A stretch of DNA of 58,285 nucleotides from Modestobacter caceresii (GTDB taxonomy: Bacteria > Actinomycetota > Actinomycetes > Mycobacteriales > Geodermatophilaceae): assembly GCF_000761485.1 (NCBI RefSeq), contig NZ_JPMX01000030.1, forward strand, positions 1 to 58,285, given 5' to 3'. The notes under the pieces were generated by a model. It had not been told where the DNA came from and searched no databases. It was given only the letters and a program-made list of their open reading frames with translations. A program made the translations under genes and the position numbers. Below are positions 4,042-20,318 of this stretch, one piece after another. How positions within the stretch are numbered: the stretch's first letter is position 1; each line of letters starts with the position of its first letter.

Positions 4042-5576
4042 GCGGTCACCTCCTGCTGCTCCTCGGCGCCGGCCGCGGCGGCCAGCACGTCGACCTGGGT
4101 GGCGCCCGGCCCGAACTCGGCCGTGGTGGTACCGGCGCGGACGACCTGCAGGCGGTCGGCGATCCGGATCGCCTCGGCGAGGTCGGAGGTGACGATCAGC
4201 ACGGCGGTCCCCTCGTCGGCGAGCTGGGTGATGATGCGGTGGATCTCCTCCTTGGCCCCCACGTCGACGCCCTGGGTGGGCTCGGCGAGGACCAGGACCC
4301 GGGGTCGGTCGACCAGCTGGCGGGCCAGCACGACCTTCTGCGCGTTGCCGCCGGAGAGGGCGGAGACGGCCTGCCGCTCGTGGGGTGTCTTCACCGACAA
4401 CCGGCTGATCATCGAGCGGGCGACCTCGCGTTCGCGGCGCCGGTCGACCCAGACCCGCAACTTGGACAGCAGCGGCAGGTGGCCGGCAGAGATGTTGAAC
4501 GAGATCGGCTGGAAGCTGAACAGCCCCTGCTGCTTGCGGTCGGCCGGGAGCAGGGCGATGCCGAGGTCCTTGGCCTCTCGCGGTGAGCGGGGCCGCACCT
4601 CCTCCCCGTCCACGAGGACCGTGCCGGCGGTCGCTCGGGCCATCCCGTAGACCGTGGCGCCGATCTCGGCCACCCCCGAGCCGATCAGGCCGTAGAGGGC
4701 GACGATCTCGCCGGCGCGGATGTCGACGTCGACGTCGTGGAAGTGGCCGGTCAGCCCGAGACCCCGCAGCTCCAGCCGGGGGTCGCCCGGGGGCACGGTG
4801 CGGTCCGGGCGGGCGTCGTCCAGGATGCCGCCGACCATCAGCTCGACGATCTGCCGGACGCTGAGGTCGGCGATCGGGTGGGTGCCGATCGTCTGCCCGT
4901 CACGCATGACGGTGACCTCGTCGGCGATGACGAACAGCTCGTCGAGGCGGTGGGAGATGTAGATGATCGAGACGCCGGCGGCGGTCAGCCGGCGGACCAC
5001 GCCGAACAGGACCTCGACCTCGCGGTCGGTCAGGATGGCCGACGGCTCGTCGAGGATGAGCACCTTGGCGTCGCCGGCCAGCGCCTTGGCGATGGAGACC
5101 TGCTGCTGCTCGGCGATGGACAGCCCGCCCACGGTGGCCGTGGCGTACCGGGCGGGCAGGCCGAGCAGGTCGAGCAGCTCGACGACCTTGGCGTTCTGGG
5201 CCGCCCAGTCGACCCGGCCGCCGCGGGTGAGCTCGCGGCCGGTGAAGACGTTCTCGGCGACGGTCAGCTCGGAGAACAGCTGGGGTTCCTGGTAGACGGT
5301 CGCGATGCCCAGGGCCATCGCGTCGTGGGTCGAGGAGATGGTGACCGGCGCGCCGTCGAAGGTGATCGTCCCGGTGTCGGCGGTCTCGGCGCCCGCGAGG
5401 ATCTTGATCAGGGTGGACTTCCCCGCGCCGTTCTCCCCGACCAGGGCGTGCACCGTGCCGGGCTGGACCGCCATGTCGGCGTGCCGGATGGCCCGGACCG
5501 CGCCGAAGCGCTTCGAGACGCCGGACACCGAGAGGCGGGTGGGCGTGCTCGGGGTGTCGGGCTGGGGCGTGGTCAT
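4038..5576 (-). CDS. sugar ABC transporter ATP-binding protein, two nucleotide-binding domains
   Basis: 512 aa, RbsA/RhaT-type duplicated ATPase energising import by the two permeases. Domain 1: Walker A GENGAGKSTLIK at about residues 48-59, signature LSIAEQQQVSIAKAL, Walker B VLILDEPSA. Domain 2: Walker A is degenerate (ALYGLIGSGVAEIG), signature LSGGNAQKVVLARQL, Walker B reads VLVLAEPTQGVDVGAKEEI with Ala in place of the usual Asp before Glu. A degenerate second Walker A is normal in this family; the Ala substitution is less usual and further suggests that only domain 1 hydrolyses ATP. A strong hairpin lies between it and the binding-protein gene. Confidence 0.93.
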   Translation of the reverse strand: MTTPQPDTPSTPTRLSVSGVSKRFGAVRAIRHADMAVQPGTVHALVGENGAGKSTLIKILAGAETADTGTITFDGAPVTISSTHDAMALGIATVYQEPQLFSELTVAENVFTGRELTRGGRVDWAAQNAKVVELLDLLGLPARYATATVGGLSIAEQQQVSIAKALAGDAKVLILDEPSAILTDREVEVLFGVVRRLTAAGVSIIYISHRLDELFVIADEVTVMRDGQTIGTHPIADLSVRQIVELMVGGILDDARPDRTVPPGDPRLELRGLGLTGHFHDVDVDIRAGEIVALYGLIGSGVAEIGATVYGMARATAGTVLVDGEEVRPRSPREAKDLGIALLPADRKQQGLFSFQPISFNISAGHLPLLSKLRVWVDRRREREVARSMISRLSVKTPHERQAVSALSGGNAQKVVLARQLVDRPRVLVLAEPTQGVDVGAKEEIHRIITQLADEGTAVLIVTSDLAEAIRIADRLQVVRAGTTTAEFGPGATQVDVLAAAAGAEEQQEVTA

Positions 5577-9313: not shown

Positions 9314-10342
9314 TCAGCCCTGCAGGATCGGCTCGTAGACCTCCTGGGTGCGGTCGAGGAGCTGCTGGAACTCCTCGGCGCCCTGGAACTCCTCCGGCAC
9401 GTACTCCGCGCCGATCTGCTCGGCGATCGCCGGGTCCTCGGACGCCGTCCGGAGGGCGTCCTCCAGCTCGGTGACGATCTCCTCGGGCAGGTCACCGGGG
9501 CCGATCAGCCCGAACGTCGACCCGGACAGCGTCAGCTCCGGGAAGCCGGACTCGGCCAGGGTGGGGGTGTCCGGCAGCCAGGGCAGTGGCTCCGCGGAGG
9601 AGACCGCCAGCGGGCGGAACTGGCCGGCGTCGATGTTCGCGGTGACGTCGGAGGAGGCGTTGATCAGCACCGCGTCGACGTTGCCGCCCAGCAGGGCGGT
9701 GGTCATCTCGGCGTTGCCGTTGAACGGCACGGCGGTGACCTCGACGTCGTACTCCTCGGCCAGCCGCTGCAGCTCGATCGCCTGCGGGGTGGAGGCGCCG
9801 GGCGTGCCGACGTTCAGCGAGCCGGGCTGCTGCCGGGCGGCGGCGAAGAACTCCTCGGCGGTGGCGTACGGCGAGTCCGCGCCGACGGCGAGCACCGACG
9901 GCACCTCGCTCATCACCCCGATCGGCGTCACGTCGTCCTTCGTGTAGCCGACCTCGTTGGCCAGCGGCGTGAGCACCAGCGTGCCGGGGGTGGCGAGGGA
10001 GAGGGTGTGCCCGTCGGGGTCGGCGCCGATCAGCTCCTGGGTCGCGAGCGCGCCCGAGCCGCCGGGCAGGTTCTCCACCACCACGGTCTGGCCCAGCTGC
10101 TCCTCGAGGGAGGCGCCGTAGGCGCGGGCGGTCAGGTCCGTGGGACCGCCGGCCCCGTAGGGCACCAGCAGCCGGATCTCCTCGGTCGGGTACTCCGCGG
10201 CCTGCTCGGCGGAGCCGGACGTCGTCTCCTCCGTCCCGCCGCAGGCGGTGAGCAGGCCGAGGGCGGTGCAGGCGGCGAGGGCGCGGGCGGTGCGGGCGCG
10301 GGCGGTGCGGGCGCGGGCGCGGGCGGTGCGGGACAGGGGCAT
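9314..10342 (-). CDS. tripartite tricarboxylate transporter (TTT) solute-binding lipoprotein
   Basis: 342 aa, TctC/Bug family extracytoplasmic receptor for carboxylates. Signal peptide with lipobox LLTAC, then RLLVPYGAGGPTDLTARAYG, the beta-hairpin that holds the ligand carboxylate, and VVVENLPGGSGALA. The Arg/Ala-rich N-terminus (residues 3-20) is encoded by a 15-base tandem repeat. It is the last gene of the operon that begins with tctB, following the CoA-transferase genes. It is closely similar in sequence to the receptor at 17573-18580, more than to the one at 13362-14342. Confidence 0.9.
   Translation of the reverse strand: MPLSRTARARARTARARTARALAACTALGLLTACGGTEETTSGSAEQAAEYPTEEIRLLVPYGAGGPTDLTARAYGASLEEQLGQTVVVENLPGGSGALATQELIGADPDGHTLSLATPGTLVLTPLANEVGYTKDDVTPIGVMSEVPSVLAVGADSPYATAEEFFAAARQQPGSLNVGTPGASTPQAIELQRLAEEYDVEVTAVPFNGNAEMTTALLGGNVDAVLINASSDVTANIDAGQFRPLAVSSAEPLPWLPDTPTLAESGFPELTLSGSTFGLIGPGDLPEEIVTELEDALRTASEDPAIAEQIGAEYVPEEFQGAEEFQQLLDRTQEVYEPILQG
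10281..10331. repeat. 15-bp GC-rich tandem repeat inside a signal-peptide coding region
   Basis: Unit GCGCGGGCGGTGCGG occurs at 10281-10295, 10296-10310 and 10317-10331, with a 6-base partial unit between the second and third. The unit length keeps the reading frame, so copy changes would only alter the number of ARTAR repeats in the basic N-region of the TctC-type lipoprotein. Confidence 0.8.
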
Positions 10343-15983: not shown

Positions 15984-16496
15984 TCAGCCCCCGATCACGG
16001 CGTCGACGAGGCCGTCGGGGAAGGGCACCCCGAGCAGCTCCACGAACAGCAGGTACATCACGGCCGTGCCGCCGGCGGCCAGCCCCAGCGTCCACCGCCA
16101 GGACTCACCCCCGAAGACCCGCAGCCACAGCACCAGCATCAGGAACGCCGAGACGACGAAGCCGAAGGTCTGGAACAGCAGGATGAAGACCCCGAGGCTG
16201 ACCAGCCCGGCGATGATCCGCACCGTGCCGCGGGTCCACGGCTCGTAGTCCTCGGCCGGGTCGAGGAGGACCAGCACGGCCGCGGTGCCGGTGAGCAGCA
16301 GCGAGACGATGAAGGGCCACAGCCCCGGCCCCGGTGCGGTCAGCTCGCCCAGGCCCAGCCGGCGGGAGCCGAAGACCGCGACGACCCCGAGGACGAGGAG
16401 CAGCAGCGGCGCGATCCGGTGCAGCTGCCGCCACCGGTGCCCCCGGTCCGTCGTCCCCTCGGCCGGGGTGCCGGACGCCGATGTCGAGCCGTGCAC
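15984..16496 (-). CDS. tctB: TTT transporter small permease
   Basis: 170 aa with a ~25-residue soluble N-terminus and four TM segments (LLLLVLGVVAVFG; GLWPFIVSLLLTGTAAVLVL; IIAGLVSLGVFILLFQTFGF; LGLAAGGTAVMYLLFVELLG). This is the length and topology of TctB. First gene of the operon, GTG start, divergent from the LysR gene across 125 bases. Confidence 0.85.
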   Translation of the reverse strand: MHGSTSASGTPAEGTTDRGHRWRQLHRIAPLLLLVLGVVAVFGSRRLGLGELTAPGPGLWPFIVSLLLTGTAAVLVLLDPAEDYEPWTRGTVRIIAGLVSLGVFILLFQTFGFVVSAFLMLVLWLRVFGGESWRWTLGLAAGGTAVMYLLFVELLGVPFPDGLVDAVIGG

Positions 16497-16526: not shown

Positions 16527-16540
16527 GTGAGCCAGGACAC
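16527..16540 (+). promoter_or_regulatory. candidate LysR operator, copy 1 (GTGAGCCAGGACAC)
   Basis: Located in the tctB/lysR divergent gap. It is extended to GTGT-N8-ACAC from 16525. Three close relatives lie in the receptor/aldehyde-dehydrogenase gap at 18622-18716. The shared motif implies one regulator for both promoter regions, most simply the adjacent LysR protein. Confidence 0.55.
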
Positions 16541-16559
16541 TAGGGCCGGCTTTGAGAGT

Positions 16560-16578
16560 GGTCCAATACGGAATGACC
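16560..16578. promoter_or_regulatory. interrupted palindrome GGTC-N11-GACC upstream of lysR
   Basis: Perfect 4-base inverted arms separated by 11 bases, 44 bases before the lysR start, in a patch that is less GC-rich than its surroundings. Size and position fit the interrupted palindromes bound by LysR proteins for autoregulation, but short arms make chance occurrence possible. Confidence 0.35.
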
Positions 16579-16621
16579 CGCTGATCCAGAGCGGCCGTGC
16601 ATCAATGGTCGGAGGAGTCCG

Positions 16622-17530
16622 ATGGAGCTGCGACACCTGCGCGCGTTCGCCGCCGTGGCCGAGGAACTGCACTTCGGGCGGGCGGCGCTCCGGCTGCACG
16701 CCGCCCAGCCCGCGCTCAGCCAGCAGATCAAGCACCTCGAGCAGGACGTCGGCACGCTGCTGCTGGAGCGGACCACCCGGCAGGTGCGGCTGACCGCGGC
16801 GGGCGTGGTCTTCCTGGAGCACGTGCACCGGGTGCTGGCCGAGGTCGACCGGGCGCGGGAGTCGGTGCTGGCCACGGAGCGGGGCGCCCGCGGTGAGATC
16901 CGGGTCGGGGTGACCGGTGCCATCACCTGGCGGCTGCTCCCCCGGATGGCCCGCGCCTACCGGCAGCGCTATCCCCTCGTCCGGCTGGACCTGCACCCGG
17001 CGGTGTTCAGTGGCACCCAGGTCAGCTCGTTGCTGGACGGGCGGATCGACGTCGGGTTCCTCCGGGCGCCGGTGCCCGACGGACCGCTGGCCAGCCGGGT
17101 CATCCTCAACGAGCCGCTGATGGCGGTGCTGCCGCTGGGCCACCCGCTCGCCGGCGCGGACGCCGTGGACCTGGCGGACCTGTCCGGCGAGCCCTTCGTC
17201 ACCTATCCCTCGCGGCACGGCTCGGCACTGCGCGACGCGGCGGTGCACGCGTGCTTCTCCGCCGGGTTCACCCCGCGGGTGGTCCAGGAGGCCCCGGACA
17301 CGCACACCGTGGTCGCCCTGGTCGGCGCCGCGGTCGGCGTCACGCTCATGCCCGCGTCGGCCGAGCGGCTGCAGCTGGAGGGGGTGGTCTTCCGCCCGAT
17401 CGCCGGAGGTGTCGACGTGCGGGTGCCGATAGCGCTGGCCTGGCGACGGGAGGACCCCTCCCCGGTGCTGGCCGGGTTTCTGGCCACCGCCGAGGAGGTA
17501 CTGCCCAGCCCGCCACGAGGTGACCGGTGA
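16622..17530 (+). CDS. LysR-family transcriptional regulator
   Basis: 302 aa. N-terminal HTH MELRHLRAFAAVAEELHFGRAALRL with AQPALSQQIKHLEQDVGTLLLER, the standard LysR DNA-binding region, then a two-subdomain effector domain starting near GEIRVGVTGAITWRLLPRM. Sequence style (EELHFGRAA, AQPALSQQI) resembles CatR/BenM-like regulators of aromatic and organic acid catabolism. Divergent from the tctB operon, which it probably activates in response to the imported acid or a product. GGAGG upstream of the ATG. Confidence 0.9.
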   Translation: MELRHLRAFAAVAEELHFGRAALRLHAAQPALSQQIKHLEQDVGTLLLERTTRQVRLTAAGVVFLEHVHRVLAEVDRARESVLATERGARGEIRVGVTGAITWRLLPRMARAYRQRYPLVRLDLHPAVFSGTQVSSLLDGRIDVGFLRAPVPDGPLASRVILNEPLMAVLPLGHPLAGADAVDLADLSGEPFVTYPSRHGSALRDAAVHACFSAGFTPRVVQEAPDTHTVVALVGAAVGVTLMPASAERLQLEGVVFRPIAGGVDVRVPIALAWRREDPSPVLAGFLATAEEVLPSPPRGDR

Positions 17531-17562
17531 CCGGCGCCGTCCCCAGCTGCGGACGGCGCCGG
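17531..17562. terminator. bidirectional stem-loop between convergent genes
   Basis: Perfect 12-base arms CCGGCGCCGTCC and GGACGGCGCCGG around an 8-base loop, placed immediately after the lysR stop and before the stop of the convergent receptor gene. No U-tract, as usual in high-GC actinobacteria. Confidence 0.75.
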
Positions 17563-17572
17563 CCACCAGGGC

Positions 17573-18580
17573 TCACTCCTGCAGGATCGGGCCGTACGTC
17601 TCGACGATCTCGTCGATCCGGTCGGCGAAGGCGTCCGTGCCGATGAACTCGTCGGGCACGTACTCCTCGCCGAGCTGGTCCATCACCTCGGGCTGCTCCA
17701 GGCAGCCGTTCACCGTCTCCTCCAGGGTGGAGACGACGTCGTCCGGCGTGCCGGCCGGGGCCGCGAGGCCGAACACCGACACGCTGTTGGTCAGCTCTGG
17801 GAAGCCCGACTCGGCGAGCGTGGGCACGCCCTCCAGGTAGTCGACCTGCTCGGCCGGGCTCACCGCCAGCGGCACGAACTCGCCGGCGTCGATGTTCGCC
17901 AGCACGTCCTCCGAGGCGTTGATGAAGACGGCGTCCACGTTGCCGCCGAGCAGGGCCGTGGTCATCTCGGCGTTCCCGGTGAACGGCACCGCGGTCACCT
18001 GGACGTCGTACTCCTCGGCCAGCCGCTGCAGCTCCATCGCCTGGGACGTTGTCGCCCCGGGGACGCCGACGTTCAGCTGGCCGGGGTTCTCCTCGGCGGC
18101 CTGGAAGAACGCCTCGGCGTCGGCGTACTCGGAGTCCGCCCCGACCGCGAGGACGGAGGGGATCTCGGTGACGGCGGCGATCGGGACGTAGTCCTCGTTG
18201 GTGTAGCCGACGTCCTGCTGGAGCGGGTTGGTCGCGGTGGCCGGGACGGCGATCAGCGACAGGCTGTAGCCGTCGTTGCCGCCGGCCAGCATCGCCTGCA
18301 TGCCGAGCGACCCGGAGGCGCCGGGACGGTTCTCCACGACGACGGTCTGCCCGAACTCCGTGGACAGGCAGTCGCCGATCGTCCGCGCGGCCAGGTCGGT
18401 CGGGCCGCCCGCGGCGTAGGGCACGTAGAGGGTGATGTCGTCGGTCGGGTAGTCCGCCGCGGCGGCGTCGTCCCCGCCGCCACCCCCGGTCGTGGGCTCG
18501 TCCTCGGTGCCGCCGCAGCCGGCCAGGGTCAGTGCGGATGCGGCGAGGAGTGCGGGAAGGGTGAGCCGGCGTCGTTGCAT
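17573..18580 (-). CDS. TTT solute-binding lipoprotein (TctC family), solitary
   Basis: 335 aa, lipobox LAGC near residue 21, Gly/Asp-rich linker, then LYVPYAAGGPTDLAARTIG and VVVENRPGASGSLG. Two cysteines, in IGDCLSTEFGQ and VNGCLEQP, are absent from the other two receptors and could form a disulfide. No tctA or tctB is adjacent, so it presumably feeds the permease at 14339-16496. Divergent from the aldehyde dehydrogenase gene and flanked by the shared operator motif. Confidence 0.9.
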   Translation of the reverse strand: MQRRRLTLPALLAASALTLAGCGGTEDEPTTGGGGGDDAAAADYPTDDITLYVPYAAGGPTDLAARTIGDCLSTEFGQTVVVENRPGASGSLGMQAMLAGGNDGYSLSLIAVPATATNPLQQDVGYTNEDYVPIAAVTEIPSVLAVGADSEYADAEAFFQAAEENPGQLNVGVPGATTSQAMELQRLAEEYDVQVTAVPFTGNAEMTTALLGGNVDAVFINASEDVLANIDAGEFVPLAVSPAEQVDYLEGVPTLAESGFPELTNSVSVFGLAAPAGTPDDVVSTLEETVNGCLEQPEVMDQLGEEYVPDEFIGTDAFADRIDEIVETYGPILQE

Positions 18581-18621
18581 CGGTTACCTCCGTCGTGTTC
18601 GAGGGCGCGTGTCCCAGGGCA

Positions 18622-18650
18622 GTGGCCTGGCTCACTGTGCCTTGACTCAC
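18622..18650 (-). promoter_or_regulatory. candidate LysR operators, copies 2 and 3
   Basis: On the minus strand, GTGAGCCAGGCCAC (18622-18635) and GTGAGTCAAGGCAC (18637-18650), 15 bases apart start to start, 42 bases upstream of the solitary receptor start. Near-identical to the motif in the tctB/lysR gap. Confidence 0.55.
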
Positions 18651-18702
18651 CGGGGGTCGCCCGGCCGCTGGATCACGGTCGGGCAACGATCCCGGGGCCC
18701 GT

Positions 18703-18716
18703 GTGAGCCAGTTCAC
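18703..18716 (+). promoter_or_regulatory. candidate LysR operator, copy 4 (GTGAGCCAGTTCAC)
   Basis: This copy is a clean inverted repeat GTGA-N6-TCAC. It lies 37 bases upstream of the aldehyde dehydrogenase ATG. See the copies at 16527, 18622 and 18637. Confidence 0.55.
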
Positions 18717-18752
18717 TCGCCAGACGTCCAAGACGACTGGCAGAGTGCCGCC

Positions 18753-20318
18753 ATGGCTGCCGCGTCGTCGCCCCCCGCCCTGCACGTCAAGCCCGGCACC
18801 GAGTGGGCCGCGGTCCTCGGCCGCGCCGCAGACCTCGTGCCCGAGGCGTTCGGCACCGACCGGCTGCACAACCTCGTGGACGGCGCCTGGCGACCGATCG
18901 GCAGCCCCGAGCCGCTGGTCACCCCGGTCGACGGCACCAAGCTGATCGGCCTCCCCCGCCTGTCGGCCGGCGAGGCGCAGCACGCCGTCCTGGCCGCTGC
19001 CGCCGCCCACCGCGAGTGGGCGCAGACCCCGCTCGCCGAGCGCAAGGCCCGGGTCACCGCCGCCGTCGAGGCGATGGTCGCCGCCCGCGACGAGCTCGCG
19101 CTGCTGCTGGCCTGGGAGATCGGCAAGCCGTGGAAGCTGGCCTGCGCCGACGTCGACCGGGCGCTGGACGGCGTCCGCTGGTACGTCGAGGAGATCGACA
19201 CCATGCTCGGCGACCGGGCCCCGCTGGCCGGCCCGGTGTCCAACATCGCCAGCTGGAACTACCCGATGTCGGTGCTGGTGCACGCCGAGCTGGTGCAGCT
19301 GCTGGCCGGCAACGCGGTGCTGGCCAAGACGCCGTCGCAGGGCGGCGCGGCCTGCCTGACCCTGGCCCATGCGCTGATGGCCCGGGAGGGGCTGCCGGTC
19401 ACGCTGCTCTCCGGCGGCGGTGCGGAGCTGTCCAGCGTGCTGGTGCGCTCCCCTGAGATCGGCGCGCTGGCCTTCGTGGGCGGCCGTTCCAACGGCGGCA
19501 AGGTCGCCGCGGACCTGCTGGACACCGGCAAGCGGCACATGCTCGAGCAGGAGGGCCTCAACGCCTGGGGGATCTGGGAGTTCTCCGACTGGGCCGGGCT
19601 GGCCGCGCACCTGAAGAAGGGCTTCGAGTACGGCAAGCAGCGGTGCACCGCCTACCCGCGCTACGTCGTCCAGCGGGAGCTCGTCGACCAGTTCCTGGCC
19701 ACCTACCTGCCGGTCGTGCAGTCGCTGCGCTTCGGGCACCCGCTGGCCGTCGAGGCCGACGGCGACGACCTCCCGACGCTGGACTTCGGTCCGGTGATCA
19801 GCGCGGCCAAGGCCCAGGAGCTCGGCCGCCAGGTCTCCGACGCGATGCACCGGGGCGCGGTGCCGCTGTACCGGGGCAGCGTCTCCGACGGCCGGTTCAT
19901 CACCGGCCAGGACACCTCGGCCTACGTGGCACCCGCCGCGCTGCTGTCCCCCGCCGGCGCCAGCTCCCTCATGCACGCCGAGCCGTTCGGGCCGATCGAC
20001 ACGATCGTCGTCGTCGACTCCGAGGCGGAGCTGCTGGCCCAGATGAACGCCTCCAACGGCGCGCTGGTCGCCAGCCTCGCGTGCGACGACGAGGACAAGG
20101 CCCGCCGGCTGGCCCGGGAGGTGCAGGCGTTCAAGGTGGGGATCAACAAGCCCCGCTCCCGCGGCGACCGGGCCGAGCCGTTCGGTGGCCGCGGCGCGTC
20201 CTGGCTGGGCTGCTTCGTCGGCGGGGAGCTGCTGGTGCAGGCCGTCACCCAGGGCGCGGAGAACGAGCTGCTCCACGGCAACTTCCCCGAGCACTCCCGG
20301 TACCCCGCCGCCATCTGA
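18753..20318 (+). CDS. divergent aldehyde dehydrogenase-family protein
   Basis: 521 aa. The ALDH fold is recognisable: ASWNYPMSVLVHAELVQLLA (NAD site), LLAGNAVLAKTPSQGG, and KQRCTAYPRYV with the catalytic Cys298. Other signatures are unusual: the Glu motif reads MLEQEGLNAWG instead of LELGGK, the nucleotide-binding turn is FVGGRSNGG instead of FTGS, and the C-terminus is GGRGASWLGCFVGG. It is clearly different from the two classical ALDHs at 25905 and 37638. Shared operator motifs suggest it oxidises an aldehyde produced in the same pathway, for example by the thiamine-dependent decarboxylase. Substrate unknown. Confidence 0.8.
   Translation: MAAASSPPALHVKPGTEWAAVLGRAADLVPEAFGTDRLHNLVDGAWRPIGSPEPLVTPVDGTKLIGLPRLSAGEAQHAVLAAAAAHREWAQTPLAERKARVTAAVEAMVAARDELALLLAWEIGKPWKLACADVDRALDGVRWYVEEIDTMLGDRAPLAGPVSNIASWNYPMSVLVHAELVQLLAGNAVLAKTPSQGGAACLTLAHALMAREGLPVTLLSGGGAELSSVLVRSPEIGALAFVGGRSNGGKVAADLLDTGKRHMLEQEGLNAWGIWEFSDWAGLAAHLKKGFEYGKQRCTAYPRYVVQRELVDQFLATYLPVVQSLRFGHPLAVEADGDDLPTLDFGPVISAAKAQELGRQVSDAMHRGAVPLYRGSVSDGRFITGQDTSAYVAPAALLSPAGASSLMHAEPFGPIDTIVVVDSEAELLAQMNASNGALVASLACDDEDKARRLAREVQAFKVGINKPRSRGDRAEPFGGRGASWLGCFVGGELLVQAVTQGAENELLHGNFPEHSRYPAAI

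Follow-up and report, generated by a model that had tools for sequence, protein, structure and literature searches.

In the window – the whole 58,285-bp stretch of Modestobacter caceresii DNA analysed here – four copies of a 14-bp motif, GTGAGYCARNNCAC, lie in two divergent intergenic gaps. The reading that we favour, at a probability of roughly 0.68, is that three of them (copies 1, 2 and 4 below) are sites for a Crp-family regulator, likeliest the canonical cAMP-Crp encoded on contig C28 of this genome (G000), which would activate an aldehyde dehydrogenase gene (aldh) and repress tctB and probably tctC, with the local LysR-type protein acting on a separate box. The sequence itself shows the sites, how well they are conserved, that they do not depend on LysR and that Crp is encoded; binding, cAMP dependence, transcription starts and the direction of control we infer. 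The observation behind the original prediction was correct and useful, its regulator wrong: what is present looks like an ordinary set of Crp-type operators plus a separate candidate LysR box.

A local LysR regulon is replaced by the prediction that cAMP-Crp, and with it carbon status, controls an uncharacterised tripartite tricarboxylate transporter (tct) cluster, together with an aldehyde dehydrogenase, in an actinobacterial family whose members live on stone and in deserts. The motif probably links these genes to a broad network, not to one small regulon, and separate candidate sites can now be given for Crp and for LysR. The case also bears on readings made from a single genome, in which a global regulator's sites in two adjoining gaps can mimic a private regulon.

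The locus and its four motif copies

The tct cluster occupies the minus strand and ends at tctB; it encodes three TctC receptors, TctA, TctB, a thiamine-diphosphate enzyme and CoA-transferase subunits A and B. The first gene of the transporter operon, tctB (15984–16496, minus strand; PF07331), is divergent from the gene for the LysR-type regulator (16622–17530, plus strand; PF00126 and PF03466), which converges on a solitary tctC receptor gene (17573–18580, minus strand; PF03401), itself divergent from aldh (18753–20318, plus strand; PF00171). This gene order is retained in seven Modestobacter genomes, and eight Geodermatophilus-type genomes have the cluster and its LysR gene without aldh. An orthologue of the LysR protein was found in 15 of 112 genomes of the family Geodermatophilaceae (E ≤ 1e-75); farther off, among the best five candidates per genome in 394 genomes of the class, none but the window's own appeared (E ≤ 1e-95).

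All four 14-mers are present at the positions and on the strands originally claimed: copy 1 (GTGAGCCAGGACAC, 16527–16540, plus strand) in the tctB/lysR gap, with a GTG-N8-CAC core; copy 2 (GTGAGCCAGGCCAC, 18622–18635, minus strand) upstream of the solitary tctC; copy 3 (GTGAGTCAAGGCAC, 18637–18650, minus strand); and copy 4 (GTGAGCCAGTTCAC, 18703–18716, plus strand), which is indeed the perfect GTGA-N6-TCAC inverted repeat described as the best copy and has its centre 43.5 bp ahead of the aldh start codon (ATG). The restriction to the two gaps also holds, GTGAGYCARNNCAC having no other exact match in the window. Across the whole genome (4.95 Mb) there are five exact matches – the four window copies and a fifth, taken up below – against one for the reversed pattern, a rarity that is partly post hoc because the pattern was derived from these same copies. 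At up to two mismatches, the window count (21) is that of shuffled sequence (mean 21.55), so only the exact class is exceptional; at up to one mismatch, the genome holds 106 matches as against 61 in the reversed control, which points to related sites elsewhere. Whether the motif is common at unrelated sites, as would have told against the original prediction, has a divided answer: exact matches are rare, and the core is enriched genome-wide.

Comparison of the seven syntenic Modestobacter genomes bore out the conservation of three copies in orthologous gaps, and mostly not that of the remaining one. Copy 1 retains GTGA...GACAC in all seven; copy 2 keeps its arms, GTGA...CCAC, in all seven, with the interior altered in two; and copy 4 retains GTGA...TCAC in five (one with a different interior) and is lost or degraded in two. 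Copy 3, possibly a chance occurrence, has GTGA in just two genomes and GTG-N8-CAC in three, and is unsupported as a functional site. Judged from these alignments, the conserved feature is GTG-N8-CAC, in its best form GTGA-N6-TCAC, with a variable interior, and the comparison supports the motif as a real, conserved element of regulatory type in both divergent gaps.

The tctB/lysR gap contains GTG-N8-CAC in all 15 genomes of two genera, with an interior that differs between them (GTGAGCCAGGACAC versus GTGACGCCCGACAC and others). Among tctC gaps, it is found in 7/7 from Modestobacter and in 5/8 of Geodermatophilus type, where it may act on the divergently transcribed neighbour; 12 of 16 promoters without LysR and 16 of 25 aldh upstream regions have it too. 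In each of the five promoter sets, spacing 8 stands out from the others compared (4–12), except that GTG-N10-CAC is present in 14/15 tctB/lysR gaps, which we put down to GTGTGA overlapping the GTG-N8-CAC site.

A probable regulator of the Crp family

GTG-N8-CAC is the published motif of GlxR, and that of S. coelicolor Crp is GTG(N)6GNCAC (PMC10033298). Published sites for GlxR, for the Crp of Streptomyces and for M. tuberculosis CRP have the forms GTG-N8-CAC and TGTGA-N6-TCACA (PMC4254451, PMC10033298, PMC4117774, PMC5327559). Copies 1–3 fit GTG(N)6GNCAC, and copy 4 fits TGTGA-N6-TCACA at nine of ten positions, with one mismatch; the Crp/GlxR dyad, in one form or the other, is present at copies 1, 2 and 4, and at copy 3 in three of seven genomes. 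Gao 2012 and Kohl 2008 are cited in those papers.

Many further sites of this kind exist. With at most one mismatch, TGTGAN6TCACA occurs at 37 places in the genome as against 7 in the reversed control, and its exact form 109 times in 56 family genomes as against 5. In 6 of the 31 loci taken at TGTGA-N6-TCACA sites, nuoB – a respiratory target, fitting Crp – lies within the 3-kb stretch. In the present genome, two sites of this type (G000:C7:54659 and 54591; L179) are separated by 68 bp and precede nuoB by about 0.5 kb, and nuoB is near such sites in five other genomes too.

The genome encodes a canonical Crp orthologue, which matches M. tuberculosis CRP with a phmmer E value of 2.8e-100 and has the same recognition-helix stretch, ASRETVNKALADF. 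A Crp orthologue is encoded where the sites occur: in 106 of the 112 family genomes, and in 95 of the 96 good ones, compared with 15 of the 112 for the LysR orthologue. Three of the six genomes without a Crp match are 67–81% complete or of draft quality, including G095 and G097, both of which have sites. The canonical Crp is, on this evidence, the likely regulator, but since the genome encodes two more Crp/Fnr-family proteins, the case is stronger for the family than for this one protein.

That the sites belong to one of these two paralogues, encoded on contigs C79 and C52, and not to the canonical Crp seems unlikely. All three Crp-family proteins have, by eye, an RE-xxx-K/R recognition stretch; TGTGATCCAGGGCACA is centred 98.5 bp upstream of the C79 start; and the copies show additional conserved bases beyond the plain Crp consensus, namely an interior GCCAG common to three of them, to which may be added an invariant GTGAG arm at the dehydrogenase described below. 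Against this, sites of GTG-N8-CAC type occur in all genera examined, in which canonical Crp is near-universal. The C79 site lies at L185:834–849, ahead of a non-canonical Crp/Fnr-family gene (ORF 940–1704). Against the assignment to Crp itself stands a finding from S. tsukubaensis, in which a Crp protein failed to bind predicted sites in gel shifts and GlxR bound (PMC10033298). Among titles and the beginnings of abstracts, none described a tct cluster of Geodermatophilaceae as being under Crp.

The motif in genomes without the LysR gene

The original prediction made the motif the operator of the LysR protein encoded at 16622, through which the transporter, the thiamine enzyme, the CoA-transferase, the solitary receptor and the aldehyde dehydrogenase would be governed as one regulon. 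Four of the five exact genomic matches do lie within 2.2 kb around lysR, and one stands in lysR's own divergent gap, which is conserved with lysR in 15 genomes. We nonetheless consider this assignment very improbable, since the same core is found at aldh, tct and dehydrogenase promoters of genomes that do not have this LysR gene; the motif does not, in other words, occur with, and only with, that gene. Its dyad, moreover, is even: on inspection by eye, neither the four copies nor their flanks showed the T-N11-A arrangement there, with T and A twelve positions from each other, and it is another dyad, one that has T-N11-A, which follows LysR. Nor is a private regulon supported, for the exact motif recurs outside the cluster and its core is enriched across the genome. 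What survives is the idea that all these promoters could answer to one regulator.

Among the tct operons, family genomes with a close TctC1 number 32, and promoters were read in 31, G017 (a partial match) being left out. In 15 genomes, the operon is headed by another tctC and there is no LysR orthologue; 12 of these 15 promoters have an exact GTG-N8-CAC directly after a conserved CTGTGyT element, as against the 0.7% expected by chance per shuffled promoter – the genomes being kin and not 15 independent events – and the remaining three match it at five of six bases. One of the LysR-less genomes (G006) has a perfect TGTGACCTCGGTCACA, and a sixteenth LysR-less promoter (G027) has GGTGATCTGGACCACA upstream. 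No regulators were found beside the LysR-less operons among the few neighbouring ORFs scanned.

At aldh, for which upstream sequences were read for 21 of 80 loci, a perfect GTGA-N6-TCAC is centred 41.5–44.5 bp before the ATG in 14 of 25 family loci, the other 11 having no perfect site at that place; the ATG from which the distance is taken belongs to a conserved CTGGCA...ATG box, which 19 of the 25 loci have. In nine of the 14 loci with a perfect site, the flanking sequence covered includes no tctC and no lysR, and no LysR orthologue was found in those nine genomes, three of which are 70–80% complete. One genome (G105) has two aldh copies, on C20 (L015) and C3 (L033), whose products are 97% and 96% identical to the window's enzyme; the box and the site are found only at the C3 copy.

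The fifth exact copy of the motif (G000:C22:15904; L005:9905) lies upstream of an unrelated short-chain dehydrogenase gene (PF13561), whose orthologues, searched from the protein side, were found in 18 of 23 genomes of the genus. All 18 Modestobacter orthologues have GTG-N8-CAC 83–98 bp upstream, with the GTGAG arm invariant (18/18), and 13 have the exact motif; in the 11 genomes without a LysR orthologue, the core is present in every case and the exact motif in six.

That the motif is no operator at all, its similarity being due to conserved core promoters or to coincidence at high GC content, draws on the overlap of copy 1 with the putative −10 hexamer TAGTGT, on the frequency of GTG-N8-CAC in coding DNA (46 in the window, with 42 for the N5 spacing) and on the chance-level counts at two mismatches, yet it has scarcely any likelihood given that both arms are retained while the interior changes, that spacing 8 stands out, that the distance to the aldh ATG is constant across several genera and that the motif so exceeds its expected frequency in the (albeit related) LysR-less promoters.

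Predicted control and comparison with known operators

A generic sigma-70 promoter scan found none between 16400 and 18800. Conservation nonetheless suggests a putative promoter for the tctB operon on the minus strand, with −35 TTGGAC at 16561–16566 and −10 TAGTGT at 16537–16542 (TTGGAC-N18/19-TAGTGT in 15/15), and, on the plus strand, a putative −10 CAGAGT (18741–18746) of a leaderless aldh promoter, within the conserved CTGGCAGAGTG..ATG box (19/25 aldh loci). In one genome (L165, about 9509–9560), the tctB promoter has two copies of its ACACTA unit, and this separates the putative −10 from GTG-N8-CAC by 16 bp.

Relative to such predicted, unmapped starts, the putative Crp sites lie at −41.5 to −44.5 from the aldh ATG and over the start of tctB. 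At aldh, the site at −43.5 of an apparently leaderless promoter would occupy a class II activator position. At tctB, copy 1 covers TAGTGT, its centre near −3.5; since the site lies over the predicted start, Crp would be a repressor there. Repression of tctC is a guess from an invariant CACAGT adjoining copy 2. M. tuberculosis CRP is described as repressing from sites near the start and activating from upstream ones (PMC4117774). We give little weight to a more elaborate scheme for Geodermatophilaceae, in which one Crp signal would have opposite effects within a short intergenic region that is shared, activating leaderless aldh from a class II site (about −43) and, from sites over their starts, blocking transcription of the tct receptor and transporter genes, the three Modestobacter sites having converged on one extended sequence, GTGAGCCAG, read by a dedicated Crp-family paralogue.

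For LysR itself, the probable site is another element of the tctB/lysR gap, a TTG-N9-CAA box; this candidate operator, TTGGACCACTCTCAA (16552–16566, minus strand), has the T-N11-A motif of LysR-type operators (PMC5002191). The sequence TTGGACCA is present in 15/15 LysR-bearing tctB/lysR gaps, 0/15 tctC gaps and 0/16 LysR-less promoters, and TTG-N9-CAA in 14/15, 0/15 and 1/16, respectively; a T-N11-A dyad thus stands beside the divergent lysR and, in the form TTGGACCA, is absent without it. The box overlaps the putative tctB −35, and its conservation may therefore be owed in part to the promoter, but it appears the likelier LysR site than the repeated motif. With candidate LysR and Crp sites side by side, the tctB operon would respond both to cAMP-Crp and to the inducer of LysR.

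The tctC/aldh gap holds a second conserved footprint, GGATCACGGTCGGGCAACGATCC (18670–18692), of which GATCGTTGC is found in 7/7 Modestobacter tctC gaps, 0/8 Geodermatophilus-type ones and 9/16 LysR-less promoters. The GATCGTTGCC footprint is present both in the tctC gaps of Modestobacter and in the tct promoters without LysR; five of the LysR-less loci (L147, L152, L156, L157 and L158) have two occurrences of TCGTTGC or TCGTTAC at an interval of 11 bp, an arrangement like that of response-regulator sites. Another cluster without LysR (L177, about 5375–5425) has a large inverted repeat, CACTACGG...CCGTAGTG, before tctB, perhaps another operator.

Set against known LysR-type operators, the repeated motif resembles them in that one copy lies between the divergent tctB and lysR, where operators of this type are usually found; it differs in lacking T-N11-A and in not tracking the LysR gene, as the adjacent TTG-N9-CAA box does. 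With actinobacterial Crp/GlxR sites – C. glutamicum GlxR (TGTGANNTANNTCACA), S. coelicolor Crp, M. tuberculosis CRP and R. jostii (GTGANNTGNGTCAC) – it shares an even dyad (GTGA-N6-TCAC or GTG-N8-CAC) with a free interior, occurrence genome-wide and near promoters, and an encoded Crp orthologue. It differs from those sites in that binding is here a prediction, in the additional GCCAG carried by three of the copies, and in the predicted targets, which are aldh and a cluster for a tripartite tricarboxylate transporter.
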